Under the pieces are notes generated by a model, which saw only the letters and a program-made list of their open reading frames with translations, was not told the DNA's origin and did not search any database. A stretch of 60,992 nucleotides of DNA. It comes from Methyloversatilis sp. (GTDB lineage: Bacteria > Pseudomonadota > Gammaproteobacteria > Burkholderiales > Rhodocyclaceae). A program made the translations under genes and the position numbers. Below, one piece after another: positions 15,350-39,675 of the stretch (the stretch's first letter is position 1; each line of letters begins with the position of its first letter). The stretch spans positions 1-60,992 of the forward strand of contig NZ_JAUYRO010000014.1 of assembly GCF_030696805.1 (NCBI RefSeq), written 5' to 3'.

Positions 15350-15370
15350 ACGGACCCTGTGCATCAACAC

Positions 15371-15980: not shown

Positions 15981-17153
15981 GTGACCCCCGTCGCGACGCC
16001 GCGCATGCACGCATTCGATCTGCTGCGAGGCTGTTGTGCCATCGCAGTCGCGTGCTACCACCTGCTCACCTGGCAACACGTGGTAACCCTGGACGCGATC
16101 GGTCTGTATGCGGTCTATGTGTTCTTCGTGCTGTCCGGCGCGAGCATCACGCTGGCCTACGCGGACAAACTGCGCACGCTGGCGGATTTCCGGTCATTCA
16201 TGGCGATTCGCTATCTGCGGCTGGCGCCGCTTTACATGGCGGTACTGGCGCTGGCCATGGCGTATCGGGTCGTGGCCCGGGACAACGACGCGCTGCTGCA
16301 CAAGGCGCTGCAACTGCTGCCGAACATCACGATGCTGTTCGGAGTCGGCAATCCCGGCGCATCTTCGCTCGTCATTGGTGGCTGGTCGCTCGGCATAGAG
16401 TTTCTTTTCTATCTGCTGTTTCCTGCATTCCTCGTCTGCGCGTCGCTGGCCCGAGGCAAACCCTGGCTTGCTGCAGCGATGCTCGCGCTGACGCTGTTGA
16501 TCCAGCAGGGTTTCGTCAACAGCGTGCTTCAGTCCGGGATGGTCCGGTTCAGCGATCACGTGTTCGCCTATACGCAGTTCGCCGCATTCATTGCCTACTT
16601 TTCCGGTGGTTGCGCCATCGGCATGTTTCTGCGCTCCAGGCCGGGGCGTCGCTGGAGTGCGTGGGCGTGGATACCTGCCATCGCGTTGCTGGTACTGCTT
16701 TTTGCCGATCACACGAGCCCGCAGGCAAGCATGCTGACCGGACTGGAGGGGGGCGGCCGTGCGATGCTGACGGTACTTGTGGTCCTCGCGTGGAGCCGAC
16801 TCCCGGTAGGAGATATCATGCAGAAGTTCTCGGGCAGCCTGGGCGATGCCAGCTACGGAATCTATCTTCTGCACCCGGTCCTCTTTCACGGTTTCGCCGC
16901 ACTCGGTGGAAACGGCGGTTTCCTTCCGGCGTTATCCCAGGGTGCGAACGCAGCGGTGCTCTGCGTGATGATTGTGGTGTGTTCGTTCGTGCTGTCGATC
17001 GCCTTCCATCGTCTTGTCGAAATGCGTGTGCTGCGCTGGGGCAAGGAGCGATTCGTCTTCGACCATGCCGCGCGCGGCCACACCGGCGTGCCAGCCGCGG
17101 CAACCGGACGCACGCCGGAATTCAAGACGGATCGACACGAAAGAACCCCATGA
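15981..17153 (+). CDS. Acyltransferase-3 (OafA-like) membrane protein
   Basis: A 390-aa integral membrane O-acyltransferase. It has the family's N-terminal pattern FDLLRGCCAIAVACYHL, with the catalytic-type arginine and histidine, then VFFVLSGASI, IRYLRLAPLY, and SYGIYLLHPVLF near the C-terminus. About ten hydrophobic helices are visible. Members add acetyl or other acyl groups to extracellular polysaccharide or LPS. The annotated GTG at 15981 is the earliest likely start; an internal ATG 24 bases later is also possible. The gene overlaps hisF by 4 bp (ATGA). Confidence 0.9.
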   Translation: MTPVATPRMHAFDLLRGCCAIAVACYHLLTWQHVVTLDAIGLYAVYVFFVLSGASITLAYADKLRTLADFRSFMAIRYLRLAPLYMAVLALAMAYRVVARDNDALLHKALQLLPNITMLFGVGNPGASSLVIGGWSLGIEFLFYLLFPAFLVCASLARGKPWLAAAMLALTLLIQQGFVNSVLQSGMVRFSDHVFAYTQFAAFIAYFSGGCAIGMFLRSRPGRRWSAWAWIPAIALLVLLFADHTSPQASMLTGLEGGGRAMLTVLVVLAWSRLPVGDIMQKFSGSLGDASYGIYLLHPVLFHGFAALGGNGGFLPALSQGANAAVLCVMIVVCSFVLSIAFHRLVEMRVLRWGKERFVFDHAARGHTGVPAAATGRTPEFKTDRHERTP

Positions 17154-17884
17154 GAGTCATCGCAAAACTTGACGTCAAACCGCCCTACGTCGTTAAGCCG
17201 GTTCATTTCGAGGGACTGCGCAAGATCGGTGAGCCGGCGGAGCTCGCGCGGCAGTACTACGAGCAGGGTGCAGACGAGATATTTTATGTGGATATCGTTG
17301 CGTCGCTGTATCGCAGGGAGATTCTGTTCGATGAGATCCGCAGAGCCTCGGCCGATATCTTCGTACCGTTTGCCGTCGGAGGAGGGATACGTTCTCTGGA
17401 CGATATCTCGCGCATGTTCCACAGCGGCGCCGACAAGGTCACCCTGAACACCCACGCTGTCCAGCAGGAGCCCGACCTGATCGACCGCGCGGCGCGAACC
17501 TTCGGCTCGCAAGCCATCGTCATCAATGTCGAAGCAAAACGCTGGGATGGCTGGTGGGAGTGTTACACCGATTGCGGCCGCGAGCGCAGCGGCAAGGATG
17601 TGATGCCGTGGATACGCGAGGCGGAACAGCGCGGAGCGGGCGAGATTCTGGTGCAGTCGGTCGACTGTGACGGCCGTCGTGCGGGTTTCGACATCGAGCT
17701 GATTTCGCAGGTGAAGAACAGCGTTTCGGTTCCGGTCGTGGCGGCCAGCGGCGCCGGAAGTCTGGGTGACATCGTCGCCATGGCGCGCAAGGCCCGTCCG
17801 GATGCCGTTGCGGTGTCGAGCGTGCTTCACTATGGTCTTTGCAGCATCCAGGACATCAAGAACGCACTGAAAGACGGAGAGTAA
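17150..17884 (+). CDS. hisF: HisF-like cyclase subunit of a sugar-amidination system
   Basis: A 244-aa (beta/alpha)8 barrel related to the imidazole glycerol phosphate synthase cyclase: VAKLDV-type first strand, FAVGGGIRSLDDI, ADKVTLNTHAV, VVAASGAGSLGDI. Here it lies next to hisH and an N-acetyl-sugar amidotransferase gene and not with other his genes. That arrangement is known from WbpG-HisH2-HisF2 of Pseudomonas aeruginosa and the PtmG/PseA neighbourhood of Campylobacter, where HisH/HisF supply ammonia for acetamidino groups. ATG at 17150 was chosen over a much longer in-frame opening, whose upstream part is the out-of-frame acyltransferase sequence. Confidence 0.9.
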   Translation: MRVIAKLDVKPPYVVKPVHFEGLRKIGEPAELARQYYEQGADEIFYVDIVASLYRREILFDEIRRASADIFVPFAVGGGIRSLDDISRMFHSGADKVTLNTHAVQQEPDLIDRAARTFGSQAIVINVEAKRWDGWWECYTDCGRERSGKDVMPWIREAEQRGAGEILVQSVDCDGRRAGFDIELISQVKNSVSVPVVAASGAGSLGDIVAMARKARPDAVAVSSVLHYGLCSIQDIKNALKDGE

Positions 17885-17891
17885 AGGTCAC

Positions 17892-18497
17892 ATGTCGAGA
17901 ACGATCGGTGTCGTGGATTACGGCTCGACGGGAAACATCGAGAGCATCCGCAAGGCGCTTGTCGCGGCGGGTGCGCAGGTACGGATCATCGACAACGCCT
18001 GCAATCTTTCAGGTGCAGACAAGCTCGTGCTGCCTGGTGTCGGCAGCTTTGCAGAGGCCATGCGGCAGGTTCGCGAGCGCGGCATGTTCGATCCGCTGAT
18101 CAGTGCGGCGGAATCGACGCCTGTGCTGGGCATCTGTCTTGGCATGCAGATGCTGGCCAGAGTCGGCTACGAGTTCGGCGAAACGCCCGGTTTCGGCCTG
18201 ATAGATGGCGAAGTGAGGCCGGTGATCTGCAAGGCAGCCATACCGCATATCGGTTTCAAGCAGGTGCGCACGATCGGCGATTCGCCGCTTTTTCGCGGCC
18301 TGGCCAGCGACGCCGAGTTTTACTTCATGCACTCGTACGAGTTCGTGAATTACACCGATGTGTCCGGCCTGACCATCCACGGCGAGCACCAGTTCGTCTC
18401 TGCCGTTGCGAAGAACCACCTGTTCGGCGTTCAGTTCCATCCCGAAAAAAGCCGGGACGCCGGTATTCGACTGCTGAAGAACTTCGTTGAGCTCTGA
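17892..18497 (+). CDS. hisH: HisH-like glutaminase subunit of a sugar-amidination system
   Basis: A 201-aa class I glutamine amidotransferase related to the glutaminase half of imidazole glycerol phosphate synthase. The nucleophile cysteine sits in LGICLGMQ. The catalytic His-Glu pair is in VQFHPEKS, and the N-terminal GNIESIRKAL and LPGVGSFAEAM patterns match HisH. It releases ammonia from glutamine, presumably channelled through the HisF-like barrel encoded 7 bp upstream. Its place before the PseA/WbpG-like gene argues for a role in glycan amidination and not in histidine synthesis. Confidence 0.92.
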   Translation: MSRTIGVVDYGSTGNIESIRKALVAAGAQVRIIDNACNLSGADKLVLPGVGSFAEAMRQVRERGMFDPLISAAESTPVLGICLGMQMLARVGYEFGETPGFGLIDGEVRPVICKAAIPHIGFKQVRTIGDSPLFRGLASDAEFYFMHSYEFVNYTDVSGLTIHGEHQFVSAVAKNHLFGVQFHPEKSRDAGIRLLKNFVEL

Positions 18498-18504
18498 CAA
18501 GATC

Positions 18505-19719
18505 ATGACTGCCACACAGGGAAAGTACGGACTTCCTCTCGAAGTGAAGTTCTGCCGGAAATGCACGATGAGCAATCAGCGTCCGGCTTCAACGGTCGAG
18601 TTCAGGAACGTCAGGGGACAACCCAAGCAGTCGCTTGTGTTCGACGAGCACGGCGTCTGCGACGCCTGCAAGTTCGCCGAACTCAAGAAACAGATCGACT
18701 GGAATGCACGCGAGCAGCAACTGGTCGAACTTTGCGACCGTTTCCGCCGCAGTGATGGCCGCTACGACGTCGTTGTCCCTGGCAGCGGCGGCAAGGATAG
18801 TGTCATGGCGGCGCACGTGCTCAAATACAAGTATGGCATGAACCCCATCCTCGTGACGTGGCCCCCGGCCATCTACACCGGCATCGGACAGCTCAACTTC
18901 AACAAGTGGCTCGACATCGGGTTCGCCAATTACACGTATCACCAGAATCGCAAGGTGCACCGGATACTCACGCAACAGGCTTTTCTCAATCTGTGTCATC
19001 CATTCCAGCCCTTCATCCTCGGGCAGAAGAATCTGGCGCCCAAGATGTCGGCGCTGCTCGACATTCCTCTGGTCATCTTCGGCGAGAACGAGGCGGAGTA
19101 CGGAAACCCGATCGTGGACAACGAGAAGCCGACGCGCGATCCGAAGTACTACAGCGCCGAGGGCCGTCTGGATGATCTGTACCTCGGCGGCGTGAGCGCC
19201 CGCGAGCTGATGGATCGCTACGAATTCACCAAAGCCGATCTCGAGGCCTACTTGCCGGTCGATCCCAACCGTCTTCTCGAAACCGGCACCGAAGTTCACT
19301 ACCTGGGTTTCTACCTGCGCTGGCACCCGCAGGAAACGTATTACTTCGCTGTCGAGCATTCCGGATTCGTGCCGAACGTCCATCGGACCGAAGGCAGCTA
19401 CAGCAAGTACAGTTCGCTGGACGATGAGATCGACTGGCTTCACTACTACACCGCCCATGTCAAATTCGGCATCGGCCGTGCGACCTACGATTCGGCGCAG
19501 GAAATCCGCAATGGCGACATCACGCGTGACGAAGGCATCGCCCTGATCAAGCGCTACGACGGTGAATATCCGCATCAGTACCTGGCCGACTGTCTCGAGT
19601 ACATGGACATCACCGCCGATCAGTTCCATGCAGTGATCGAGGACGCTCGCACGCCGCACCTGTGGGTGAAGGACGGCGAACAATGGCGCCTGCGCCAGCC
19701 GATCTGGGAAAAAGGGTGA
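18505..19719 (+). CDS. N-acetyl sugar amidotransferase (PseA/WbpG/PtmG-like)
   Basis: A 404-aa PP-loop protein with two Cys-x-x-Cys pairs (CRKC near the N-terminus, CDAC about 40 residues later) and the ATP-pyrophosphatase loop VPGSGGKDSV. YGNP and ETYYFAVEHSGF are further landmarks. Relatives convert an N-acetyl group on a sugar to an acetamidino group using ammonia from the HisH/HisF pair. The substrate is inferred to be a legionaminic-acid-type or other diacetamido sugar made by this locus. The first in-frame codon is a TTG at 18487; ATG at 18505 is preferred because it starts just after hisH ends. Confidence 0.88.
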   Translation: MTATQGKYGLPLEVKFCRKCTMSNQRPASTVEFRNVRGQPKQSLVFDEHGVCDACKFAELKKQIDWNAREQQLVELCDRFRRSDGRYDVVVPGSGGKDSVMAAHVLKYKYGMNPILVTWPPAIYTGIGQLNFNKWLDIGFANYTYHQNRKVHRILTQQAFLNLCHPFQPFILGQKNLAPKMSALLDIPLVIFGENEAEYGNPIVDNEKPTRDPKYYSAEGRLDDLYLGGVSARELMDRYEFTKADLEAYLPVDPNRLLETGTEVHYLGFYLRWHPQETYYFAVEHSGFVPNVHRTEGSYSKYSSLDDEIDWLHYYTAHVKFGIGRATYDSAQEIRNGDITRDEGIALIKRYDGEYPHQYLADCLEYMDITADQFHAVIEDARTPHLWVKDGEQWRLRQPIWEKG

Positions 19720-19779: not shown

Positions 19780-20562
19780 ATGGTCACCGATGATCCGCGC
19801 AAGGGCTACTGGAACGAGGCGTACTACAAGTACTGGAAGTCGCGCGTTGATGAAGCCGGAGTCGGTAGCAGTCAGGTCATCAAGGGGGATGCCAATACCG
19901 AGGATGACGACGTCTATCGGGCGTTGTTCTCGACCTATGGTTTCAACAGCGGGCGCGTGCTCGAGGTCGGCTGCGCATGGGGCCGCATGTTTCCTTTGTA
20001 CCTGGCACACGGCCTGACGCTCAGTGCCGTCGATATTTCCGCAGCGATGGTCGGGGCCGCCAGTGAGCGGTGGGCGGGACATCCCGACATCGAGAGCATC
20101 CAGGAGTCGCCCGCCGAAAGCCTGCCTTTCGATGACTGTACGTTCGACAATCTGGCCTGCATCGCGACCTTCGACGCAACTTTCCAGGATCAGGCCCTGC
20201 GCGAGTTCCTTCGCGTGACCAAGCCCGGTGCTCGCCTGTTCTTCACCGGCAAGAATGATCTTTATCACCGCGATGATCAGGCTGCGCTGGACGCGGAAAT
20301 CGGTGCGCGGCGCAAGCAGCACCCGAATTTCTTCACGGATACGCGCCGCATGGTCGAACTGCTGCAAGCTGAGGGACACAAGGTCGACGCCTTGCTGTGC
20401 TTTCCGCGCCGCGGTGACTTCGCCAAGGCGGCTTACGTGACGCCGCCTCCGGATCATTTCTACGAATACATGATCGTCCTCACGCGGGGACCGGTGGTCG
20501 GTGACTTTCCGCCGTTTGCCAGCGAACATTCGAAAACTTTCCTCGCCGGTGAGCACGGATGA
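19780..20562 (+). CDS. Class I SAM-dependent methyltransferase
   Basis: A 260-aa protein with the Rossmann-fold methyltransferase core: motif I VLEVGCAWGRMFPLY (residues about 53-67), an acidic residue at the end of strand 2 (LSAVDISAAMVGAA), and the FDNLACIATFD motif IV region. Methyltransferases of this type decorate O-antigen or capsule sugars. The acceptor is not predictable. The 4-bp overlap with the sulfotransferase gene that follows suggests that the two tailoring enzymes are made together. Confidence 0.85.
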   Translation: MVTDDPRKGYWNEAYYKYWKSRVDEAGVGSSQVIKGDANTEDDDVYRALFSTYGFNSGRVLEVGCAWGRMFPLYLAHGLTLSAVDISAAMVGAASERWAGHPDIESIQESPAESLPFDDCTFDNLACIATFDATFQDQALREFLRVTKPGARLFFTGKNDLYHRDDQAALDAEIGARRKQHPNFFTDTRRMVELLQAEGHKVDALLCFPRRGDFAKAAYVTPPPDHFYEYMIVLTRGPVVGDFPPFASEHSKTFLAGEHG

Positions 20563-21599
20563 TGAGCAGTGCGACCCACGCCGGCACGGTGGATGACACT
20601 GAGCCCATCATGATCTCGGGCGTTTACCGATCCGGGACCACCTTCCTCACCGCCATGCTCGGTGCGCACCCGGAGATCCGGGCGTCCTCGTCGACGGTCA
20701 AGTTCCTTCGCTTCTGCCTGAACCGATATGGCGATATGGGCGTCCGGGAAAACCGTGCGGCATTGATCGCCGACACGCACGCGCGCATTCGCAAGCGCTG
20801 GAAGCTGTCCCTTGATGAACAAGGCATCCTGCGCCAGGCTGATCTTTCAGCGTCGCCGAGCTACGCTCTGATGTACGACCTCATCATGCAGGACATGCTC
20901 GGCCAGGGAGCGGGGAAGCGCGTTCGATGGGCCGAAAAACTGGCCGCCCAATGGGAAGACATCCCGATCTTTCTGCAGATGTTCCCGCGCGGCAAGGCCA
21001 TTCACATCTTCCGCGATCCGCGCGATGTCGCGGTGTCCTACAAGTTGATGACCTTCGAGCCGGGCAATACCTTCCTTGATGCTGCGTTCAATTTCCGGGG
21101 TTCGGCGGAGTACCTCGAGCAGCTGACGCAACAGTTTCCGGACCGCGTGCTGGCTGTGCGCGCCGAAGATGTAGCGCGGGCGCCCGAGCACCACGCACGT
21201 CTGATGTGCGATTTTCTCGGCCTGACGTACTCGCCGTCGATGATCGATGCCGGCAAGCTGCAGGCCGATGGCGAAGACTGGGCGTCGAACACGTCGTTCG
21301 GCACGACCTACAAGACATTGCCGGACGCGCGCCCGCGCTGGCCCGAACACCTGAGCCGTGCGGAAACCATTTTCATCGAACTCGTCTCGCAACCCCATTT
21401 CTCCCGTCTCGGCTATCAGACTTCAGGTTTCATCCCCGACAAGGGAGAGTGGGACCGGATGTTCGATTTCGTCACCGAGCCTTTTCTGGACGAACGATTC
21501 CGCACCTGGCTGACCACGGGACGAGGCTCGCAGGGCTATCGCACGGACCCCTACGAGTACGAGATGCGCCTTGTTTTCCCGGAACGCTTCGCAGGATGA
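20559..21599 (+). CDS. PAPS-dependent sulfotransferase-family protein
   Basis: A 346-aa protein with the 5'-phosphosulfate-binding loop near the N-terminus (SGVYRSGTTFLTAML, residues about 19-33) and the 3'-phosphate loop in IFRDPRDVAVSYK. VRAEDVARAPEHHARLMCDFLGL is the typical mid-region. It should transfer sulfate from PAPS to a hydroxyl, most likely on the glycan made here. Sulfated surface polysaccharide is uncommon in betaproteobacteria. The ATG overlaps the previous stop (ATGA). Confidence 0.85.
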   Translation: MMSSATHAGTVDDTEPIMISGVYRSGTTFLTAMLGAHPEIRASSSTVKFLRFCLNRYGDMGVRENRAALIADTHARIRKRWKLSLDEQGILRQADLSASPSYALMYDLIMQDMLGQGAGKRVRWAEKLAAQWEDIPIFLQMFPRGKAIHIFRDPRDVAVSYKLMTFEPGNTFLDAAFNFRGSAEYLEQLTQQFPDRVLAVRAEDVARAPEHHARLMCDFLGLTYSPSMIDAGKLQADGEDWASNTSFGTTYKTLPDARPRWPEHLSRAETIFIELVSQPHFSRLGYQTSGFIPDKGEWDRMFDFVTEPFLDERFRTWLTTGRGSQGYRTDPYEYEMRLVFPERFAG

Positions 21600-21618: not shown

Positions 21619-22971
21619 ATGACCGGAACCGTACATATCGTCCACGCGATCGACACCGAAGGTCCGCTTTACGAGTCGCTGCATGCCAAGTTCGAGCGAC
21701 TCGAAGACCTTTTCGGCATCGTGGGCATCGAACCGACGCCCGGCAACCTTCGCAGACTGCAGGAGGGCGAGATCGATCTCGGCGATCGCACCGACGCCGT
21801 GCGAAGCATGCTGCGCAGCCACCGGGCCAACACGCTGGGTACCTGGACTGAAATCGACCAGATGCTGGAAGTTGCCTGTTCGCGCGAATTCCGGCACCGA
21901 TATCCGGACAGTCAGGGGCGCGGCTGGGCCTACACGTGGTTCTGCATGGACCACGTCGGCTATCTCGAAAATCCGCGCAAGCGCGACATCGGCCATCACA
22001 ATGTGCACGACCATTACACCGCACTCGTGAGCCGGCAGGCCTGGGCGCGGGATTCGGTCGAGTTCCATTTCCATCCCATGTCGACCTACCGCGATGCTCA
22101 CCGCTGCGCGACGCATTACCTGCGTACCGACGATCTTTACCAGATTCTTTGCCGCCGCATCATCGACCGCGGTTTTTTCCCGTCCTCCTACCGTGCGGGT
22201 TTTCAGGCGGAACGACCCGACAGCCACTGGTTTCTGGAACAGTTCATCCCGTATGACATTTCCAACATGGCGACGGCGGACACGTCCGACATCGACGCTT
22301 CGATCGACTTCAGGAACGGACGCTCCGGCAACTGGCGCAAGGCACCGCATGACTGGACGGTCTATCACCCCGATCACGACGACTATCAGGTGCCCGGGCG
22401 CTGCCGCAGACTGATCGGACGCGCACTGAACCTGAACAGCCGGATCGCCCGGATGACGCAGGACGAAATGGATCAGGGGTTCGCGCGCGCGCGCAACGGC
22501 GAGGACGTGCTGATCGGATTATGCAGTCACGACTGGCGTGATCTCGTGCCTGAGGTGGAAAACGCCTTCCGCTTTCTACAAGAAGCGAAATCGAGGTATC
22601 CGGAGGTGCCCTTCCTGTACAGCAGCTGCCGCGACGCATTTCGCGCGCAACTGCCGCCGGATCGGGCCGCTGAAGCGCCCCTGTCCATGTCGCTTCGGTT
22701 TCAGCCGGAGCAACCCGGTCGGGACGTGCCATACATCGAAGTCCGAACGGAACAGGGTACGGTCTTCGGGCCTCAACCCTTTCTCGCGATCAAGACCCGG
22801 TCCCGCCGGTACATCCACGACAATTTCGACTTCGACACGTCGGGCCGTGTCTGGTACTACGCCTTTCACGGCGACACGCTGCCGTGGTCCGACGTCGATA
22901 CGATCAGTGTCGCAGCCAACGACATGATGGGAAACACGGTCGTACTGCGTCACGACAACGAGGATCGCTGA
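21619..22971 (+). CDS. Family A protein, copy 1: possible polysaccharide-deacetylase-like enzyme
   Basis: A 450-aa protein with no family I can name for certain. Near the N-terminus is HAIDTEGPLY and at about residue 150 is EFHFHPMS. A DTE near the first strand plus an HxHP motif is reminiscent of NodB-type polysaccharide deacetylases, so a metal-dependent carbohydrate hydrolase fold is possible. It is clearly homologous to the protein at 26652-28010: both share ERPDSH.FLEQ, DDYQ.PG.CRR, GPQPFLA.K, HDNFD and LP.SDVD. The C-terminal 100 residues look like an added beta-rich domain. ATG at 21619 is favoured because it follows agggga and the homology begins there. Confidence 0.6.
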   Translation: MTGTVHIVHAIDTEGPLYESLHAKFERLEDLFGIVGIEPTPGNLRRLQEGEIDLGDRTDAVRSMLRSHRANTLGTWTEIDQMLEVACSREFRHRYPDSQGRGWAYTWFCMDHVGYLENPRKRDIGHHNVHDHYTALVSRQAWARDSVEFHFHPMSTYRDAHRCATHYLRTDDLYQILCRRIIDRGFFPSSYRAGFQAERPDSHWFLEQFIPYDISNMATADTSDIDASIDFRNGRSGNWRKAPHDWTVYHPDHDDYQVPGRCRRLIGRALNLNSRIARMTQDEMDQGFARARNGEDVLIGLCSHDWRDLVPEVENAFRFLQEAKSRYPEVPFLYSSCRDAFRAQLPPDRAAEAPLSMSLRFQPEQPGRDVPYIEVRTEQGTVFGPQPFLAIKTRSRRYIHDNFDFDTSGRVWYYAFHGDTLPWSDVDTISVAANDMMGNTVVLRHDNEDR

Positions 22972-22974
22972 CCC

Positions 22975-24195
22975 GTGCGGCGGCACACGGTCAAGGTACT
23001 GATCGCCTGCTACGGCGGAGGGCACGTACAGAGCCTGCTTCCCGTCGTTCGCCAACTGTCGGATCAACCGGACATTTCCGTCACGGTGCTCGGCTTCACC
23101 ACTGCCCTGGCGACATTCCGGAGTGCGGGCATCGCGGCCGACGGCTACTGTTCGCTGCTCGACGCCGACGATGCGCCCTGGCTTTCCCAGGCGCAGACCT
23201 GTGTTGAAAAACCGCTTCATCCGGATGTTTCGGAGCAGGATTCGGCTGCTTACTACGCACTCGGATTGCGCGATCTGCACATCGACCATGGCGCGGACAA
23301 GGCCCGCGAACTATTTGCCCGCGACGGCCGCAAGGCCTTCATGCCGGTGCATGCAATGCGTCGCCTCCTCCGGCGATCCACGCCCGATCTGGTGGTTGCC
23401 ACTACAAGTCCGCGTTCAGAACTGGCGCTGGTGCGTGCCGCCCGGCTCGAGGGCATCGAATCGCTGGCCGTGTCCGACCTGTTTCTTCAGCATGAGTCGT
23501 CCTACATCTGCGCGCCGGGCTATGCGAACCACCTGACGGTGATGGCCGCGGCAGTGGGTGAAGACATGGCACGCAGGGGTTTTCCTGCCGAACGTATCCA
23601 CGTCACCGGCAGCCCGGCGTTCGACAGCCTTTTCGACGGCACGCATGCGGCGGCGGCCGCCTCGCTGCGCCAACTGCTGGGCATGGGCGATCATCAGAAG
23701 CTGCTGCTGTGGGCCTGCCCGTCCGCACCCGTGTCGCTGATCGGAAAGCCGTTCATCGACACGGCTTCGATGATCGCCTTCCTCGAGGCGTACTGCGACA
23801 AGTGGCCGGACACCCGGTATCTGATCCGCCAGCATCCCAGCAAGCCGGTGGTGCCGCCGGGAACCCCGCTTCGACGCGGTTCGGTCTGCCCACCCGGCGT
23901 CACGATAGAAACCTGCCTGCACGCGTGCGATCAGGTCATTCTGGAAACGTCCACGGTCGGGCTCCAGGCTGCGCTGCTCGGCAAGCCCGTCGTCACCGTC
24001 GGCGCCGGGGACTATCCGCCTTACGCGGCATACGGGCTCGCCGTTGATGTTCCGGTGCTTGCCGAAGCGGGCGCTGCGCTGCGCCGGATGACAGCGCCGG
24101 ATCTCGCTCGGCTTGCCTACCCCTTGCAGGAGCGCGCGACCGACCGCGTAGGCCGACTGGTGCGCGAACTCGCCGGTCTGGACGGTGTGAATTGA
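22975..24195 (+). CDS. Family B protein, copy 1: GT-B-fold glycosyltransferase-like protein
   Basis: A 406-aa protein with a GT-B-like layout. The N-terminal Rossmann half opens LIACYGGGHVQSLLPVVRQL. The second half carries HVTGSPAFDSL, LIRQHPSKP and ILETSTVGLQAALLGKPVV, which resemble nucleotide-sugar epimerases (NeuC type) and CDP-glycerol or sugar transferases. It is homologous to the product of 25406-26662 (YGG.HV, VVATTSPR, TGSP.FD, C-terminal STVG). It begins with GTG 3 bp after copy 1 of family A, so the A and B proteins are co-translated and probably work together. It is one of the few candidates for a transferase in this locus. Confidence 0.65.
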   Translation: MRRHTVKVLIACYGGGHVQSLLPVVRQLSDQPDISVTVLGFTTALATFRSAGIAADGYCSLLDADDAPWLSQAQTCVEKPLHPDVSEQDSAAYYALGLRDLHIDHGADKARELFARDGRKAFMPVHAMRRLLRRSTPDLVVATTSPRSELALVRAARLEGIESLAVSDLFLQHESSYICAPGYANHLTVMAAAVGEDMARRGFPAERIHVTGSPAFDSLFDGTHAAAAASLRQLLGMGDHQKLLLWACPSAPVSLIGKPFIDTASMIAFLEAYCDKWPDTRYLIRQHPSKPVVPPGTPLRRGSVCPPGVTIETCLHACDQVILETSTVGLQAALLGKPVVTVGAGDYPPYAAYGLAVDVPVLAEAGAALRRMTAPDLARLAYPLQERATDRVGRLVRELAGLDGVN

Positions 24196-24214
24196 CCTCG
24201 CGGGGACACGGATC

Positions 24215-25368
24215 ATGACCCCGGCCCAGGCTTCGCTGCTCGACAGCCTCCGCGCTGCGGCCGCGCAGATCGTGCTGTTCGGGCATATCTATTCCCTGGT
24301 GCTGCGCCCCGAACGCACGCTCGGCATCGGTGACCTGGGCGTCGTCGTTTTCTTCGTGCTGTCGGGCTTTCTCATCGGCTATACGACCTTGAACAGGTGC
24401 AGCCTTGATGATTACGACCTCCGGCGCTATCTGGTTGATCGTTTCTGCAGGATTTTCGTGCCCTACCTGCCGGCGCTCATACTGATACTGCTCATCGACA
24501 GTGCGGTGTTCGCGTGGACCGATACCCGTACCTACATCGAGCATTACACGATCAAGGACTTTGTCGCGTCCCTGCTGATGCTGCAGCAACACCCGGCCGG
24601 GTTGTTTTTCGACGAGATTCTCGGTGCATCAAATCTTAAGCTATCGACCTTTTCGAGCGCCCGACCGCTGTGGACGGTGGCCGTCGAGTGGTGGCTCTAC
24701 CTCTGCTTCGGTCTGCTCGTTTTCCGCGCAAGACAGATCGTGTCATCATGCCGCTGGCAACTGCTTTTCGTCGTATTCGCGAGTGTGCCGCTGTTCAATG
24801 CCACCGCCGGTACCGGCGCCGGATTGAGCCTGGTCTGGTTCGCCATGTGCGGACTGGCATGGGTATACTGGAAGGAGCGGAAGAAAATCGACGGTGGGGT
24901 CGCCGCCATCATGATCGGCGCGGGAGCCGGGCGCGCCCTCCTTCGCGCCGCGCCATACCTTCTGTTGTTGCTGATCGCTGCCCGCCTGCTGTGGACCGGA
25001 TTTCTGGAAACACGACAGCCCTTCGATCGCTTGTTGTTCTACGACTTCAACCTGTACGGACTGATCATGGCGCTGTGCGTTGTGTTGTTTCTTCTGAAGG
25101 GCACAACGATCGACGGCGAGCGCAATCGCACGCTCGTTTCATTGCCGATTATTCCTATTCGCTGTACCTGATTCACTACAGCGTTATTTTCATGCTTCAC
25201 GCCTTTGGCCTGAAGTCCGGCAGCGACATACTCGACCTATTCATGTATTTCTTTGCCTGCAATGTTGTTGCGATCGTATTCTGGTACGTTTTCGAACGGA
25301 ACTATCGGAGATTCGGCGAACGTCTCGCCGGGCGTTTCAGGGCAGTGCCAGCGCGAGGCCTGCCATGA
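24215..25368 (+). pseudogene. Acyltransferase-3 family gene with a frameshift
   Basis: The first frame (24215-25171) encodes a membrane O-acyltransferase with LGVVVFFVLSGFLIGY, YLVDRFCRIFVPYLP and WTVAVEWWLYL. It runs out of frame near 25137, and the missing C-terminus (ADYSYSLYLIHYSVIFM through FERNYRRF) continues in the -1 frame to 25368. Loss of one base near the gtttca run at about 25136-25140 explains the break. This may be a true pseudogene, a phase-variable switch or a sequencing error. It stands between the two B genes, so the intact gene probably belonged to the duplicated module. Confidence 0.8.
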
Positions 25369-25405
25369 TCAGCACATATATGTACGCGTCCGAGAGGTCT
25401 GGACA

Positions 25406-26662
25406 ATGAGAGTGTTTCTCACCTGTTACGGGGGCGCTCACGTGTCGGCGATCATCCCGCTGTATCAGGTACTGGTGAGGCGCGGGCACACCTGCCACCT
25501 TCTTGCACTCACGACTGCAGCGGAGACGGCGCGGCGCTGCGAGTTGCCCTTCTTTCGCCCGATCGACTTCGTCGACACGGCCGACTCGGACATTCGAAAA
25601 TGGGGGGAGCGACTGGCGCAACGACACCATACCGAGGGCAAGGGGCTTTCCCGCGAGGAGTCCATTGCCTATCTGGGCGTCTCGTTCTGCGAGCTGGCAG
25701 CGGATCTCGGTGAGGCGGAAGCCTGGCGACGCTACGAGAAATCGGGTCTGAATGCCTTCGCGCCGGTCCGTTTCATGCGCCGGGTCATTTCGCATTTCGA
25801 ACCTGACGTCGTGGTCGCCACCACATCGCCACGCATGGAAAAGGCGGCCTTGCGCGCAGCTTTTCAACTCGACATACCCAGTCTGTGCATGGTCGAATTG
25901 TTCGGGCTGCTCGAAGAACCATGGCTCAGCCGGCCCGACAACGGTCATGTCCTGGCCGTGTCTCGTGAAGACGTCCGGAGACGCCTCGTGGCCGCCGGTC
26001 GCCAGGCCCGTGACATTCACCTCACGGGCAGTCCGATGTTCGATCAGCTTGCCGATCCGGATCTGCCCGCTGCGGGTCGCAGATGGCGCCATGAACGCGG
26101 GGTTGCCGACAACGAAAAACTCGTGTTCTGGGCTGAACAGCCGGAACCGGGTGATCCGGAACTTCCGCGCAGGGTTCGTCTGCATCTGGCGGATCTTTGC
26201 CGCAACAAGGGGTGGCGGCTGGTCGTACGCCTGCATCCCAGCAGTACCGATCATCGTGCGGAGAAGATTCCGTCCGACTGCCTGCAGAGCCATGCGCACG
26301 AACCGCTTTCGCATGTCATGCATGCATGCGATTCGGGCGTTACTCTTACGTCTACAGTTGGGTGGGAGCTTCTTCTCTGCAGCAAGCCTTTACTCGTCAT
26401 CCGCATATCCGAGTTCAGCAATGCCGTAACCTATGGGGCCGATGATGGCGCCCTTGTCGTTGACACGCTTGAGCAGGCTGCCGGAGGTTTGTCCGATCTG
26501 TTGCATGACACCTCCGAATCAGCACGGCTGCAGCAGTTCAGATCACGGTTGCCGAGCCCCGGTGGCGCGTCGCACCGGATCTGCGATCTAATAGAGAAGA
26601 CCGTCCATACGCGCAACTACAGTCTCGAAGATAGCAGGCGCGCCCGCACACATGCCAATTGA
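25406..26662 (+). CDS. Family B protein, copy 2: GT-B-fold glycosyltransferase-like protein
   Basis: A 418-aa paralogue of the protein at 22975-24195. Shared landmarks: FLTCYGGAHVSAIIPLYQVL at the N-terminus, VVVATTSPRMEK, HLTGSPMFDQL, VVRLHPSSTDH, and a C-terminal TLTSTVGWELLLCSKPLLVI. The layout suggests a GT-B-fold transferase or epimerase. The nucleotide-sugar donor is unknown. ATG at 25406 was chosen because the homology begins immediately after it; the longer in-frame opening overlaps the acyltransferase 3' end. It overlaps the following family A gene by 11 bp. Confidence 0.65.
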   Translation: MRVFLTCYGGAHVSAIIPLYQVLVRRGHTCHLLALTTAAETARRCELPFFRPIDFVDTADSDIRKWGERLAQRHHTEGKGLSREESIAYLGVSFCELAADLGEAEAWRRYEKSGLNAFAPVRFMRRVISHFEPDVVVATTSPRMEKAALRAAFQLDIPSLCMVELFGLLEEPWLSRPDNGHVLAVSREDVRRRLVAAGRQARDIHLTGSPMFDQLADPDLPAAGRRWRHERGVADNEKLVFWAEQPEPGDPELPRRVRLHLADLCRNKGWRLVVRLHPSSTDHRAEKIPSDCLQSHAHEPLSHVMHACDSGVTLTSTVGWELLLCSKPLLVIRISEFSNAVTYGADDGALVVDTLEQAAGGLSDLLHDTSESARLQQFRSRLPSPGGASHRICDLIEKTVHTRNYSLEDSRRARTHAN

Positions 26663-28010
26663 TCAATTGAAGATACCGGTCCTGCACGTCGTGCACTGCA
26701 TCGACACAGAAGGGCCACTTGATGAAGACATCGATGCGACTTTCAAGCGCATCGAGGGTCTCTTCGGCGTCCGGCTGCCCGTTTCAGCCGCGACGCTGAC
26801 GGCGCTGCAGCGCCGGGACATTCCCCTCGATGGCCTGGAACATGAGATCGCTGCGGTCATCACCCCCAACCTGCTGGCCTACAACCGGAACTGGGCTGAA
26901 ATCCGGAACATGCTGGGCGAGGCGCTCAGCCCCGCGTTCAGGCGCGAAATGACGGACGAAACAGGGCGCGGCTGGGTCTTCAGCTGGCATTGCCTCGATC
27001 ACCTGGGTTACACGGCGAATCCACGCCGAAAGGATCTTGGCTACGGGAAGGTTTTTCACTTCTATCGCAGCGTGCTCGCAGAAACCGGAAGCCTCGACGA
27101 CGAAATCAACTGGCACTTCCATCCGCTTTCGCTCACCCGGGAACCGCTCGCCGCCGCGACTTCCTACTCGAACAGCATGGATGTCCTGCTGTCAGTGCTG
27201 GCACGACGTATCATCGAAGACGGTTGGTTTCCGACCACCAACCGCCCGGGCTTTCACTCCGAAAGGCCCGATTCGCACGCGTTTCTTGAACAATGGATTC
27301 CGTTCGACTACGCAAATCAATCGTGTGTACTTTCGGAAAGCGAACAAAAGGACACGCATCTGGGGCGCTTCGGCGACTGGCGGCGCGCACCTCTCGACTG
27401 GATCGGCTATCACCCGCACCACGACGACTACCAGCTGCCGGGCCAGTGTCGCCGGTGGATTTTCCGGTGCCTGAACGTGGGAACCCGTCTGCGTCAGCTG
27501 ACCGAAGCCGACGTGCATGATGCGTTCCGCGATGCACTGACGCAGGGAAGTGCGATTCTTGCATTCGCCGATCATGACTACCGCGACATCAGGCCAGATG
27601 TCAGACATGTCAGGATGTTGCTGGAGAAGGTCGGCAGGGACTATCCGGCGGTCCGGTTGCGCTTTTCCGGCGCAGAAGAGGCCGCCCGTCTGCACACCAC
27701 CGCGCTGGCGAATGAAACGCCCGATGCGCCGCCTGAGTTTTCGATCGAACTCGAAGGCAATCGCGTGCATGTGCGGCTCGCGCAAGGCAGTCTGTTCGGT
27801 CCGCAGCCCTTTCTGGCATTGAAAGCCCTATCCGGTCAGTACCACCACGACAACTTCGATGTGGTTGAGCCGGGTCGCCACTGGACCTATGTGCTGGACG
27901 AGCAGACGCTGCCGTTATCCGACGTCGATTGCGTGGGTGTCGGGGGCGCCGGGCGATGCGGCGGCTACGGCGTCGCGAGGATCGTGGTCGGCGACTTGCA
28001 GCATTCATGA
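26652..28010 (+). CDS. Family A protein, copy 2: possible polysaccharide-deacetylase-like enzyme
   Basis: A 452-aa paralogue of the product of 21619-22971. It has HCIDTEGPLDED near residue 16, NWHFHPLS at about residue 156, and the shared C-terminal GPQPFLALK, HDNFDV and LPLSDVD. The possible DTE/HxHP deacetylase-like motifs are kept in both copies, which argues that they matter. Compared with copy 1 the gene order is mirrored (A-B versus B-A) on the same strand. The stop overlaps the ATG of the next membrane protein (ATGA at 28007-28010). Confidence 0.6.
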   Translation: MPIDQLKIPVLHVVHCIDTEGPLDEDIDATFKRIEGLFGVRLPVSAATLTALQRRDIPLDGLEHEIAAVITPNLLAYNRNWAEIRNMLGEALSPAFRREMTDETGRGWVFSWHCLDHLGYTANPRRKDLGYGKVFHFYRSVLAETGSLDDEINWHFHPLSLTREPLAAATSYSNSMDVLLSVLARRIIEDGWFPTTNRPGFHSERPDSHAFLEQWIPFDYANQSCVLSESEQKDTHLGRFGDWRRAPLDWIGYHPHHDDYQLPGQCRRWIFRCLNVGTRLRQLTEADVHDAFRDALTQGSAILAFADHDYRDIRPDVRHVRMLLEKVGRDYPAVRLRFSGAEEAARLHTTALANETPDAPPEFSIELEGNRVHVRLAQGSLFGPQPFLALKALSGQYHHDNFDVVEPGRHWTYVLDEQTLPLSDVDCVGVGGAGRCGGYGVARIVVGDLQHS

Positions 28011-30532
28011 CAGCTGCGAAAGTGCGAAGCGTTCCCGGTTGGCTGTTCCCGGCCTTGTTGTTTCTGCTGTGCGGCGCGATAGCGCTGCCGATGCTGCCAG
28101 TCTGGCAGGGTGGCGTTCGTCTGCTTGCGGGCATCGCACTGATCAGCGTTCTGGCCGATCGCCCGGGCATGCGCCGGATGATTGCAGCCGTTCTGGCCGT
28201 TTGTGCGCTGATCAGTGGCGCCGCGTGGCTGGCCTGGCTGGCCGCTGCGCCGTTCGACCATGTGATACACGCCCTGACCGATGTATTCGGACAGCCGCTC
28301 GGACTGTTGCCCGACTTCAGCCTGCTGCTGTATGACGCGCTTTGCGTTACGGGCCTGCTGTGTATCCTCTTGCGCCGTGACCGCCGAGGCGGATGGCCGT
28401 ATCTTGCCTTTGTGGCCGGACTCGGGACTTTCTGGTGGTGGGGCGTGCTGACGGTTGCCGCGAGGGGCGCTGGTGCGGCGTCCGGAGCCGAGCTTTCACA
28501 GATGGCTACCGGTCTGTCGGGGTGGGCTACGTGGGTCTATTGGGCTGGACTGACCTTGCTGCTCGTTCGCGACGAGTCGCAGGTGCAGCACACCCTGAAG
28601 GCGCTGGGCATCGGCGGGTTGATTGTCGGCGCGGCCATTGCCCTGCAGTGGGTGGGCGCCGATTTTTCCTATGTCATCGCATCGGTTCCGGGCGTGTCGG
28701 AAGGCTTTCATCGGGTGCGCGGCACCGATTACTATCATGCGCCCGCCGCCTGCATCGTCGGCCTGACAGCCATCGCCCTTCTGGGCCTGACGGGCGAGCG
28801 ACGACGCTTCGGAGCGTTGCTGGGCGCTGCGGCACTGATCGGACTGACCATCCTCAACAACACGCGAGCCGTCAGTCTGGCGCTCATGAGCGCCCTCGCC
28901 GTTCTGCTGATGGCCTCGCTGTGGCGACGCCAGTGGCGGACTGCTGCGATGTCGTTACTCGCTGTCGCACTCGTCGCACCACATCTGCTCTATCTGAAGC
29001 CCTCGCTGACGGGTGCGCCTGCGCAGGTGTCGACGACTGCAGCGCAGGATGGCTGGACAGATTTCGGACCGTCCTCCGATCCGACGGCCGCGACCGGGGG
29101 TACGCCTCCGCGCAGGGTGGGGGTGGCCGATGTGGCAAGGGCGAACGCTCCGCGTTCGGCGCTGGCTGAAAGCGGCCTTGCGATCCTGCCGGACGCCTGG
29201 CTGATCGGTCATGGTGTCGGCACGCTCGATCTGCCTCTCGAAGGCGATTCATTCGGCGGCCTGACCAGCACGTACTCCACGCACACTCTTTACCTGGACA
29301 TGGCATTGATGGCGGGCATTCCGGCACTGCTTGCCGCGCTGGTCGTGTTCGCGTCGGGCGCAGTCGGAACCCTGCAGGCGCTCCTGGGCAGCAAGTCGTC
29401 GCCGGTTCGCGCCGGCAGCGCCGCGGCGTTGCTTGCAATGCTGACGATGTTTGCCGTCATATCGCTGTTCCTGCCGCAGGAGCGCAACGAAGTCATCGGC
29501 ATCGCGTTTGCCGTTGCCGCGCTCGCGCTGGCCGCGGCCGGCCGGTCGAGCACTGAGGCAACCGGCCCGGCGCTGCAGCACGTAGCGGCCTGGGTCCCCG
29601 GCTATGTGCTGATTGCGCTGGGTGCAGCCGGATGGACCATCCTGACGAGTCCGACCTACATCTTCCCGGCTCTGGAACTGGTCGTTCGATACGGCGCCGA
29701 AATCGTTCGCGATCGCCAGCACGTCTATGTGAACGAACCTGCGATGCGCCCCGTGCTGGCGTCGCTGTTGCGACTGCGCGGCGGCGATGCCGCTCAGGTT
29801 TCGGTCCTTGCGGACGGCGCGCAGGCCCTCGAGGCGAGGCAGGCGTGGATTGTCTGGAACCCAGGTCGCCTTCCGGCCTACCCGGCGCTGGCCAGCCAGC
29901 TTGGAAAGCCGCGCCATCCGCATCGCAACCAGGCCCTCGCCATTTCGATGCCGGCGCACTGGTGGCTGATGCCCTCCGCGCAGCCGACGGCGAGTTTCCT
30001 GTTTGCCGGGGCAAGGACCAAAGTTCCGGCGGGCGGCCTTCACCGGAACGTTGATGACGCGTCGATTCAGGTGCCTGTATTGCCCAACCATGCCCCTTTC
30101 GCCACTATCCGCCTCGGGCCGACCATCGGCGGGCGGGCCGAACATGTTGCCGACTTCAACCAGGGATCCGCGGTGTCGTGGAATGCCGCGCACAATGCGG
30201 AAATCCGCTTTCATGTCCCTGAAATGGCGCAGCAACCGCTGCGGGCATACCGGATGAACGCGTTGATTAACCGCAGCATGCAGGCGGCGGAGCGCTACAC
30301 CTGGACGATGGAAGGGTCCGCAGACGGTCGTGACTGGACGCAGATCGACAGTCGAAGCGGCGAGCGGGTCAGCCACGATGTTTCGAGGCCTTCGACTTAC
30401 TTGATTCCGGATGCGCCAGCATTTCCGTTTTACCGTATCCGCTTCGTGCCGGCCGGAAATGCGCCCGGCGCTTCCGCCGGTCTTTCGGAGATGGAACTGT
30501 ATTTTTCACCAGACGGCCGATTTACTGATTGA
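28007..30532 (+). CDS. O-antigen ligase/polymerase-like membrane protein with a C-terminal discoidin-like domain
   Basis: An 841-aa protein. The first ~550 residues contain about a dozen hydrophobic helices with the WaaL/Wzy look: a long extracytoplasmic loop after TRAVSLALMSALAV, and a loop bearing IGHGVGTLD and THTLYLDMALMAGI. The last ~290 residues are soluble. The final stretch (YTWTMEGSADGRDWTQID through AFPFYRIRFVPAG to GLSEMELYF) is like an F5/8 type C (discoidin) carbohydrate-binding module. This is far longer than a normal ligase of 400-450 residues. ATG at 28007 overlaps the upstream stop; the longer opening lacks a plausible start. Confidence 0.7.
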   Translation: MTAAKVRSVPGWLFPALLFLLCGAIALPMLPVWQGGVRLLAGIALISVLADRPGMRRMIAAVLAVCALISGAAWLAWLAAAPFDHVIHALTDVFGQPLGLLPDFSLLLYDALCVTGLLCILLRRDRRGGWPYLAFVAGLGTFWWWGVLTVAARGAGAASGAELSQMATGLSGWATWVYWAGLTLLLVRDESQVQHTLKALGIGGLIVGAAIALQWVGADFSYVIASVPGVSEGFHRVRGTDYYHAPAACIVGLTAIALLGLTGERRRFGALLGAAALIGLTILNNTRAVSLALMSALAVLLMASLWRRQWRTAAMSLLAVALVAPHLLYLKPSLTGAPAQVSTTAAQDGWTDFGPSSDPTAATGGTPPRRVGVADVARANAPRSALAESGLAILPDAWLIGHGVGTLDLPLEGDSFGGLTSTYSTHTLYLDMALMAGIPALLAALVVFASGAVGTLQALLGSKSSPVRAGSAAALLAMLTMFAVISLFLPQERNEVIGIAFAVAALALAAAGRSSTEATGPALQHVAAWVPGYVLIALGAAGWTILTSPTYIFPALELVVRYGAEIVRDRQHVYVNEPAMRPVLASLLRLRGGDAAQVSVLADGAQALEARQAWIVWNPGRLPAYPALASQLGKPRHPHRNQALAISMPAHWWLMPSAQPTASFLFAGARTKVPAGGLHRNVDDASIQVPVLPNHAPFATIRLGPTIGGRAEHVADFNQGSAVSWNAAHNAEIRFHVPEMAQQPLRAYRMNALINRSMQAAERYTWTMEGSADGRDWTQIDSRSGERVSHDVSRPSTYLIPDAPAFPFYRIRFVPAGNAPGASAGLSEMELYFSPDGRFTD

Positions 30533-31585: not shown

Positions 31586-32674
31586 ATGGAAATGATCTAC
31601 AGCGACTTCGTCGGCAGCCAGACGGATCCGCTCACCTGGTACGACCTGCTGCCGGGCGACCCGGTGCGGATATCCGGCATGCCCGACAATTGCCCGGGCG
31701 CCGACCTGGCCGACGCGCTGCTTGCCGCCGATCTGCCTGACGATCCCGCTTTGCTCGACCTGCTCACTGCCCGGCTGTTGAACGATACAGACGACCTCTC
31801 CCGGTACCCGCACTGGCGCGAGCTTGCAACGCGACTGTCGCGCCTCATGTGTTCGCAACTGGTCGCAGGGGGCGCACGTCCGCTGAGGATGCGGGCACAG
31901 CGTCTGAATTACTGCATCCAGAGCCTGCTCGATCGCGGGCGTCCGGCAGCCTTCACGCCGTCGGATTTGATCGAAACCACGCTGCCGGGGAGCAAACCCT
32001 GGGACTGCGTTGTGCATCAGGGTGCGCGCTGGTGGCTGACTTCCGACGAACTCAACGTTCATCGAGAAGACGCATCCGGTGCGGTCGGCTGGCGACGCGG
32101 CTTGCCGACCCAGCTCGACCCGCTGCCCGACGGACGCTTGTCGGTCGGGTCGATCTACACGCCGGGCGCGCATCTGATCGATGGCCTGACGTGGACCGAA
32201 ATCACGCACGATCGGCCGGTTCCGCTTGTTTTCGAGCACGACGGCGCAGTGTGTTTCCTCGACCACTCCGGCGCTATCTGGCGCGACCGTCCGCGCGCCG
32301 TCCTGTGGCGCACACCCTGCGCCCAGGTGCATTTTGCACGGTTGATCGATGGGGTCATATTTTGTCTGGACAATGCTGATTTCGGACATCTGACGAGCTG
32401 CGACCTCGCGTCGGGCGCGATCACGCGCCACGCGACAGACCCGGTTCAGGTGTGCAATGACGTCACGCTGGCCGACGGCCACCTTTACATGATCGACAAG
32501 CAGCAGGGCAGCGTCTTCAAGTTCGACCGGGATTTCCGTTTCGTCGGGCGCGCGTTGCGTTTCGGTCGAGGTCCGGGCGAACTGCTGGACCCGGTCGGGC
32601 TGCGGTTCCAGGGCGAAAAGCTGCACGTGGTAAGCTGGCTTTCAGGTCGGCTGACGGAGCTGACACCCTTCTGA
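31586..32674 (+). CDS. Uncharacterised protein with beta-propeller-like C-terminus
   Basis: A 362-aa protein that I do not recognise. The N-terminal ~110 residues are helical and acidic. From about residue 120 short repeats with W/G-x-x-x-D turns (HQGARWWLTSDEL, HDGAVCFLDHSGAIW, ADGHLYMIDKQQGSVFKFD) suggest a beta-propeller or NHL-like fold. There is no signal peptide or membrane helix. ATG at 31586 is chosen as the first start after the upstream methyltransferase stop. It lies between tailoring genes and the nonulosonate genes, so a glycan role is likely but unproven. Confidence 0.5.
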   Translation: MEMIYSDFVGSQTDPLTWYDLLPGDPVRISGMPDNCPGADLADALLAADLPDDPALLDLLTARLLNDTDDLSRYPHWRELATRLSRLMCSQLVAGGARPLRMRAQRLNYCIQSLLDRGRPAAFTPSDLIETTLPGSKPWDCVVHQGARWWLTSDELNVHREDASGAVGWRRGLPTQLDPLPDGRLSVGSIYTPGAHLIDGLTWTEITHDRPVPLVFEHDGAVCFLDHSGAIWRDRPRAVLWRTPCAQVHFARLIDGVIFCLDNADFGHLTSCDLASGAITRHATDPVQVCNDVTLADGHLYMIDKQQGSVFKFDRDFRFVGRALRFGRGPGELLDPVGLRFQGEKLHVVSWLSGRLTELTPF

Positions 32675-32841: not shown

Positions 32842-33552
32842 ATGGCTGAACGAATGCTTTGCACGATCTGCGCCCGCGGCGGTTCCAAAGGCGTGCCCAA
32901 CAAGAACGCGCGCGTAGTCGCCGGCAAGCCGCTGCTTGCACACACGGTCGAACAGGCCATCGAAAGCGGGCTGTTCGATGCCATTGCCTTCAGCAGCGAC
33001 AGCGAAACCTATCTCGATCTGGCGGCCAGGGCCGGCGCAACGGTGCTGATCCACCGACCGGCAGAACTTGCCACCGATGTCGCAGGCAAGCTGCCGGTGA
33101 TCCGGCATTGCGTGTCGGAGGCTGAAACCAGCCTGGGTTTCCGTGCGGACGTGGTCATCGATCTCGACTGCACATCGCCGCTTCGCCTGCCGTCGGACAT
33201 CCGCGCCTGTGCAGAGCTGCTCCGCATGAGCGGCGCCGGAAACGTCGTGACGGCTGCACCGGCGCGACGTTCGCCCTATTTCAATCTGCTCGAACGCTTG
33301 CCCGATGGACGGATAGATCTCGCCAAGCGGCCGGAAGTGCCCATCCTGCGTCGACAGGATGCGCCCGCCTGCTTCGACATGAACGCATCGATATACGCAT
33401 GGACACGTGACGCCCTGTTCAGCCGTGACGGGCTGTTTCATCCAGATACCCAGCTTTATGTCATGGCCGAGGAGCGCTCCATCGACATCGACAGCGAACT
33501 TGATTTCGAGATCGTCAGTCTGCTGCTGGAACGCAGGGCCGCTGAGTCATGA
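32842..33552 (+). CDS. neuA: CMP-nonulosonate synthetase (N-acylneuraminate cytidylyltransferase family)
   Basis: A 236-aa cytidylyltransferase that activates a nine-carbon alpha-keto sugar with CTP. The N-terminal loop CARGGSKGVPNKN binds CTP. VVIDLDCTSPLRLPSDI and the C-terminal SIDIDSELDFEI are family landmarks (the latter supplies metal-binding aspartates). Given the neighbouring NeuB, NeuC and PglF/E/D-like enzymes, CMP-legionaminic acid (LegF role) is the likely product rather than CMP-Neu5Ac. It starts 167 bp after the previous gene, the largest gap in this part of the cluster, so a separate promoter may lie here. It overlaps the next gene by 4 bp. Confidence 0.88.
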   Translation: MAERMLCTICARGGSKGVPNKNARVVAGKPLLAHTVEQAIESGLFDAIAFSSDSETYLDLAARAGATVLIHRPAELATDVAGKLPVIRHCVSEAETSLGFRADVVIDLDCTSPLRLPSDIRACAELLRMSGAGNVVTAAPARRSPYFNLLERLPDGRIDLAKRPEVPILRRQDAPACFDMNASIYAWTRDALFSRDGLFHPDTQLYVMAEERSIDIDSELDFEIVSLLLERRAAES

Positions 33553-34472: not shown

Positions 34473-34494
34473 ACGAACCAACCGGATCCGCTGA

Positions 34495-39585: not shown

Positions 39586-39675
39586 GGGTGCAATGACTAC
39601 CGCACCCGCACATTTCCGATCACTGATGTGGCGCCCGGGCACCCGCGAGCGGTTGTCCCACGATAAGGCCCGGCC

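Follow-up and report, generated by a model that had tools for sequence, protein, structure and literature searches.

Why would one gene cluster carry two copies of the same gene pair, set in mirror image around an acyltransferase gene? The question is raised by a 60,992-nucleotide stretch of DNA from Methyloversatilis sp. (contig NZ_JAUYRO010000014.1, positions 1 to 60,992; hereafter the window), in which five consecutive genes read A1-B1-acyltransferase-B2-A2. We found that the A and B families both track genes for nonulosonic acids (NulOs) more consistently than they track each other. Our explanation is that the surrounding cluster would make a surface polysaccharide with a cytidine monophosphate (CMP)-activated NulO, perhaps of the legionaminic type. 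B1 and B2 would be GT-B enzymes that move NulO from CMP-NulO onto a lipid-linked repeat, and A1 and A2 would be cytoplasmic barrel enzymes acting on the NulO either before assembly or while it is under way. Their action would most likely be removal of an N-acyl group, freeing an amine for amidination or re-acylation. The two A-B pairs may serve two differently decorated NulO residues, and the mirror may have formed when two pairs that had diverged long ago, one ordered A-B and the other B-A, landed around the acyltransferase gene. Homology, conservation, synteny, the predicted folds and the R-x-H-P motif of B are shown by the data; the donor sugar, the deacylase chemistry, the two residues, the cytoplasmic location and the history of the mirror are deduced. 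Taken as a whole, we give this explanation somewhat less than an even chance of being right.

Two paralogous gene pairs surround an acyltransferase gene

The coordinates of the open reading frames (ORFs) agree with the mirrored, single-strand order that a first-pass annotation had described. All five genes lie on the plus strand: A1 (21619..22971, 450 residues), B1 (22975..24195, 406 residues), the acyltransferase gene (from 24215), B2 (25406..26662, 418 residues) and A2 (26652..28010, 452 residues). They are tightly packed. Three bases separate A1 from B1, the end of B2 overlaps the start of A2 by 11 bases, and A2 overlaps the next gene, a predicted polymerase gene, by 4. A1 and A2 are identical at 166 of 429 positions (39%, E 6e-107) and B1 and B2 at 117 of 379 (31%, E 1e-40). 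Both values are far beyond chance, and the two sets proposed as duplicates are thus genuine paralogue pairs. No additional A or B copies were found in the window genome.

The acyltransferase gene (24215-25368) is split over two frames in the window. Its first frame (ORF 24215..25171, plus strand), which matches Pfam Acyl_transf_3, stops early, and the remainder lies in another frame (ORF 24670-25368). The gene is one open frame in the three congeners that were read out. The break is either a real inactivation or an assembly error.

Both families accompany nonulosonic acid genes

We collected 21 loci containing an A gene by a scan with two peptide patterns; they are a sample and not a census. 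As genes we took stop-to-stop frames, rather than gene calls, and scored them with phmmer or hmmsearch; short spacings and overlaps are approximate as a result. Five loci (L015, L016, L019, L023 and L032) are cut by contig ends, where a missing gene is not a firm absence. Many of the records are metagenome bins, in which hosts may be mislabelled and genes wrongly counted as absent.

A relative of NeuA, NeuB, NeuC or LegC lies near A in 19 of the 21 loci. NeuA was found in 18 loci, NeuD in 16, NeuB in 15, LegC in 13 and NeuC in 12. The distance from A to a core NulO gene is 0-114 bp in eight loci (in L030, that gene is an aminotransferase). L015, one of the loci cut by a contig end, lacks a core NulO gene, and its genome carries NeuB on another contig. 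L033 counts against the association: it has an A gene, but no NeuB was found in its 0.8-Mb genome.

Full-length B (299-396 bits) is encoded by three genomes of an order sample besides the window's own, and the 20 kb retrieved around each of these B genes contain no A. NeuB lies 4.9, 5.4 and 3.7 kb from B in these genomes, and two of the three have relatives of NeuA, NeuB, NeuC, NeuD and LegC as well as WbuX, HisF and HisH near B. Matches to B in seven other genomes of the sample were partial and reached at most 72 bits. As a small control within one genome, the 14 places in the window genome that match the GT1 family (PF00534) are all more than 10 kb from its single NeuB.

NeuB is common and A is rare. 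NeuB is present in 201 of 399 order-sample genomes, whereas A is present in one, the window's own. The window's own genome is also the one with A among the 398 of a phylum sample, which shares genomes with the order sample. A is therefore an accessory of some NulO clusters and not a part of the core pathway. A plasmid search with A2 gave no match, and a viral fold library yielded nothing usable.

B proteins are candidate nonulosonic acid transferases

The structural model of B2 (predicted local distance difference test score, pLDDT, 91.0) has a GT-B fold, with 362 Foldseek matches in the PDB at E ≤ 0.001. An R-x-H-P motif occupies one alignment column in all 16 B sequences, including B1 and B2. 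PMC12887879, where it treats CMP binding, presents (K/R)XHP as a motif that sialyltransferases and retaining 3-deoxy-D-manno-oct-2-ulosonic acid (Kdo) transferases conserve. B also gives a profile match over the motif region to 8csb (E 0.0033), which the same paper identifies as the Kdo transferase WbbB. B1 matches Pfam Capsule_synth over a short stretch, with 21.6 bits against a cut-off of 20. CMP-NulO is the only cytidine-activated sugar that the cluster is seen to make, so that a role of B as its transferase is a good inference. Judged by its fold and motif, B is most likely a CMP-NulO glycosyltransferase.

Two results weigh against this assignment. Of 409 ORFs of at least 300 residues (B included), 86 contain [RK].HP at some place, so that the motif is informative only through its constancy at a single column. 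The best PDB profile matches of B are 2-epimerases (E 5e-7), ahead of WbbB, and the 50 Foldseek matches of B2 that were listed from the 362 comprise 2-epimerases and GT-B glycosyltransferases and no Kdo transferase. Pfam Epimerase_2 is matched at E ≤ 0.1 by 15 of 16 B sequences (best, 6.1e-11). The window proteins fall under the cut-off of that model (30.6 bits; B2, 25.4; B1, 15.4) and under that of the NCBIfam NeuC model (11 against 236 bits). HRREN is the active-site motif of UDP-N-acetylglucosamine (UDP-GlcNAc) 2-epimerases, and none of the 16 B sequences contains it. The Kdo-transferase nucleophile motif is QXXXD according to PMC12887879 and PMC10148158. Five of the 16 B sequences, including B1 and B2 of the window, have no Q...D at all, and in the others it has no common position.

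One B match, L060 (G016:C1:451626-452846), contains an in-frame TAG, yet an open frame of about 411 residues is present.

A proteins may be nonulosonic acid deacylases

The first-pass annotation had suggested that the module may be undescribed. For the A family, none of 26 members gave a Pfam or NCBIfam match better than E 0.011. No published description was found in the literature searched, which excludes most subscription journals, and the word "deacetylase" is absent from PMC7371886. The AlphaFold model of A2 (pLDDT 90.6; predicted template modelling score, pTM, 0.90) shows strands alternating with helices and then a C-terminal part made of strands only, which we interpret as a beta/alpha barrel joined to a beta-sandwich. 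A1 would share this architecture through its relation to A2. The best Foldseek matches of A2 in the PDB are the deacetylases 3qbu (E 3.2e-4) and 3s6o (E 1.5e-3), with template modelling (TM) scores of 0.34-0.49. Nine of 19 conserved barrel D, E and H residues lie at the C-termini of strands (p 0.0009, for windows chosen after the model had been seen). These are D18 and E20 after strand 1, D116 and H117 after strand 2, H155 and H157 after strand 3, and H308, D309 and D312 after strand 7. A1 and A2 have no hydrophobic stretch resembling a signal or membrane segment (maximum 19-residue Kyte-Doolittle values of 0.65 and 1.25), and their substrate is therefore likely to be cytoplasmic (NulO, CMP-NulO or the lipid-linked repeat).

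Our best guess, and a tentative one, is that A is a NulO N-deacylase. We favor this activity because it best joins the predicted fold, the gene location and the nearby amidotransferase and acyltransferases. In its fuller form, the proposal is that A is a new family dedicated to NulOs: a cytoplasmic, metal-dependent barrel enzyme that would remove one N-acyl group from a legionaminic-type sugar or its CMP form and open the way to amidino and other acyl variants. Gene transfer would have distributed the family across Pseudomonadota, Actinomycetota, Deinococcota, Planctomycetota, Nitrospinota and Cyanobacteriota. We regard this proposal as possible but would sooner expect it to need revision than to stand.

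Several observations speak against a deacylase. No member of the family (26 searched) matched Polysacc_deac_1 (PF01522) or a related profile at E ≤ 0.1. A sequence search of the PDB returned chance-like matches only (E 0.13 and 0.51), and an hhalign comparison with one CE4 deacetylase from the window genome gave no match (probability 0.1). The TM-scores of the Foldseek matches are low when taken on the query (0.34-0.36), and a superoxide reductase (E 4.3e-3, over 100 columns) and GH38 mannosidases (E 4.6e-3) follow close behind the deacetylases. The metal triad of CE4 enzymes consists of D and H-(S/T)-x-x-H; A has H155-x-H157-P together with D18 and E20, a different spacing.

The mannosidase matches raise the alternative that A is a glycoside hydrolase, with a GH38-like barrel and beta-sandwich, that trims or edits lipid-linked NulO intermediates. 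Golgi alpha-mannosidase II chains appear from rank 4 down in the A2 Foldseek list with a probability of 0.96, and the C-terminal part of A is strongly conserved, including the stretches FGPQPFLA and HDNFD. However, the deacetylases outscore the mannosidases in Foldseek, and there is no convincing Pfam glycoside hydrolase match (one A member is Cellulase-like at E 0.096). We consider a hydrolase unlikely.

We also weighed whether A itself might be the NulO transferase, or a polymerase-like enzyme, with B adding another sugar. A core NulO gene is present in nine of the 10 A loci that lack B, and some other protein must therefore transfer NulO there. On the other hand, the three genomes described above have B beside NulO genes but no A close to it, no glycosyltransferase fold is prominent among the Foldseek matches of A, and L027 has, by eye, another glycosyltransferase-like ORF near NeuB. 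These results make a transferase role for A improbable.

A and B are associated but not obligate partners

The first-pass annotation had suggested that A and B may form a two-component enzyme system, to be checked by A-B adjacency across genomes and by the agreement of their phylogenies. Adjacency holds in part. B is near A in 11 of the 21 loci: it immediately precedes A in three (L015, L016 and L017), immediately follows A in three (L018, L021 and L022), lies 1.2-3.8 kb away in three (L023, L025 and L031), and takes part in the mirrored order in the two loci of the window's own genus. No B was found in the other 10 loci, and the genomes of these 10 hold no full-length B at E 1e-10, with one partial 52-bit match. 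The same search recovered B in L015 and L018, as expected. A without B is thus widespread, an outcome that the first-pass annotation itself had named as refuting its proposal.

The phylogenies likewise coincide in part. Spearman correlations between A and B tree distances are 0.72 for 12 A2-type pairs and 0.91 for all 16 pairs. With the window genus counted once, the value for 10 A2-type pairs is 0.61 (permutation p 0.0006); the permutation ignores shared ancestry, and the correlation shows common inheritance at most. L031 breaks the pattern. Its two A proteins fall in different tree groups, its two B proteins group together (support 90/89), and window B1 joins neither. An obligate two-component enzyme duplicated as a unit, as the spacing of at most 50 bp between A and B in eight of the 21 loci, the 11-base overlap of B2 and A2 and the correlated distances might suggest, is the least probable of the readings that we considered, given the 10 genomes with A and no full-length B, the three with B and no A nearby, and the disagreement of the trees in L031.

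Serving two related residues of a sugar polymer, as had also been suggested, is plausible for the two pairs. The A1-B1 pair stands beside amidotransferase, methyltransferase and sulfotransferase genes, and A2-B2 beside the polymerase gene and an orphan gene.

The mirrored order is known from one genus

In the window's genus, A is present in four of 13 genomes (the window included), with two copies in each. The order A1-B1-acyltransferase-B2-A2 is repeated in all three congeners read out, that is, in all four genomes of the genus that carry A. L013 and L014 of the locus scan correspond to two of these congeners (G769 and G770). None of the other 19 A loci, including the five that run off a contig, showed the mirrored order. 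Two A and two B genes occur in L031, unmirrored, with one B on the opposite strand. Independent conservation of the mirror was ruled out as a candidate, because L013 and L014 belong to the window's genus and the mirror is known from that genus only.

The trees place the two A copies far apart. The ends of alignment rows were chosen by hand, and for L014 and L031 the second A copy begins at an internal position of the protein. A1 falls in a six-row group (support 100/98) with the A proteins of a Nitrospinaceae member, a Pelagibacter and an alphaproteobacterial record, and A2 in a 15-row group (100/99) with those of Azoarcus, Achromobacter and others. B1 sits on a very long branch apart from all other B proteins, a kind of join that the program warns may be false. 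The earlier argument that the mirror cannot come from one simple tandem duplication is upheld by the different, well-supported groups of A1 and A2. A recent duplication in place was ruled out on the same grounds, together with the long branch of B1.

The B-A and A-B orders each exist singly elsewhere, and the mirror is therefore best explained by the joining of two old pairs. The simplest reading is that these pairs came together around the acyltransferase gene and did not arise by one duplication. The disagreement between the A and B trees in L031 argues against a strictly pair-by-pair history. Taken alone, the mirrored order resembles the usual shuffling of genes in operons.

The surrounding genes suggest a nonulosonic acid polysaccharide cluster, perhaps legionaminic-type

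The five genes form the middle of a gene string of about 28 kb (13.5-41.6 kb). It starts with an AsnB-like, asparagine-synthase-type amidotransferase gene (13496-15349), whose product may amidate a carboxyl group of the glycan. Eight of the 21 A loci carry a relative of this gene, as does each of the three loci where B stands without A. An initiating sugar-phosphate transferase gene (15359..15925, plus strand; PF02397) and a further acyltransferase gene precede genes for a HisF-like protein, HisH and the N-acetyl sugar amidotransferase WbuX (17150..19719, plus strand), an acetamidino-type modification module. HisH and WbuX score over their cut-offs (WbuX, 321 against 203 bits) and HisF under. 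Methyltransferase and sulfotransferase genes (19780..21599, plus strand) lie directly upstream of A1.

Downstream of A2 is a gene for a Wzy- or O-antigen-ligase-like polymerase (28007..30532, plus strand; PF04932, E 3e-7, 30.8 bits against a cut-off of 31.7), with relatives in eight of the 21 A loci. A second methyltransferase gene separates it from the orphan gene (31586..32674, plus strand), whose product has no Pfam or NCBIfam match. Relatives of the orphan occur in 12 of the 21 A loci, and all 12 hold an A of the A2-type group. By eye, the orphan is perhaps a beta-propeller.

The NulO block (32842..37504, plus strand) encodes a CMP-NulO synthetase-like protein (113 bits; cut-off, 205.7), a Gfo/Idh-type protein, a short-chain dehydrogenase/reductase (SDR), NeuB (422; cut-off, 400) and NeuC (408; cut-off, 236). 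It is followed (37491..41583, plus strand) by genes for a NeuD-type acetyltransferase-like protein, assigned by phmmer alone, for a LegC-type aminotransferase with 353 bits against a cut-off of 420, and for a large membrane protein. The membrane protein resembles a sugar dehydratase by eye and gives a 90-bit match to a LegB-type query. The aminotransferase (38110-39585) has an N-terminal extension that looks by eye like a CBS pair. A similar CBS-like extension precedes the nucleotidyltransferase part of a PtmE-like protein in L025.

This gene content, including NeuB, NeuC, the amidination module and the polymerase, points therefore to a NulO polysaccharide cluster, perhaps legionaminic-type. 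The exact NulO type is uncertain because the LegC and CMP-synthetase matches fall under curated cut-offs. By inspection, no Leloir glycosyltransferase besides B1 and B2 was recognized in the cluster, although not every frame was scanned and PF00535-type enzymes were not searched for.

Comparison with known systems

We compared the two families with their closest known counterparts. B resembles UDP-GlcNAc 2-epimerases (WecB and NeuC) in its GT-B fold and its Epimerase_2 matches. It differs from them in the low scores of B1 and B2 and in the missing HRREN motif, and the cluster has a separate NeuC that scores over its cut-off. The beta-Kdo transferases of families GT99, GT107 and GT140 and the sialyltransferases share the R-x-H-P motif with B. 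The Capsule_synth match of B1 and the weak match to 8csb point the same way. Unlike the Kdo transferases, B lacks a common QXXXD, and none of them is among the 50 Foldseek matches listed. A resembles NodB/CE4 deacetylases (HP0310, 3qbu; 3s6o) in being matched best by their structures and in having D, E and H residues at the ends of barrel strands. A is unlike them in its lack of a sequence or profile match, its H-x-H-P motif and its C-terminal beta-sandwich.

The cluster type, the GT-B transferases and the amidination module are of known kinds. Legionaminic and other NulO clusters combine NeuB, NeuC, NeuA and LegC with WbuX, HisH and HisF, and the window's gene string has NeuB, NeuC, HisH and WbuX over their cut-offs and relatives of HisF, NeuD, LegC and the CMP-synthetase. 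It departs from them in carrying two members of the A family, which is far rarer in the order sample than NeuB. On bacterial surface glycans, legionaminic-type sugars come in many N-acyl and amidino variants, and to our knowledge little has been established about the enzymes that produce many of them. B is a candidate NulO transferase in a cluster with no other recognized Leloir glycosyltransferase, and the A family, found near NulO genes in distant phyla, is a candidate for one step of N-acyl and amidino variation.

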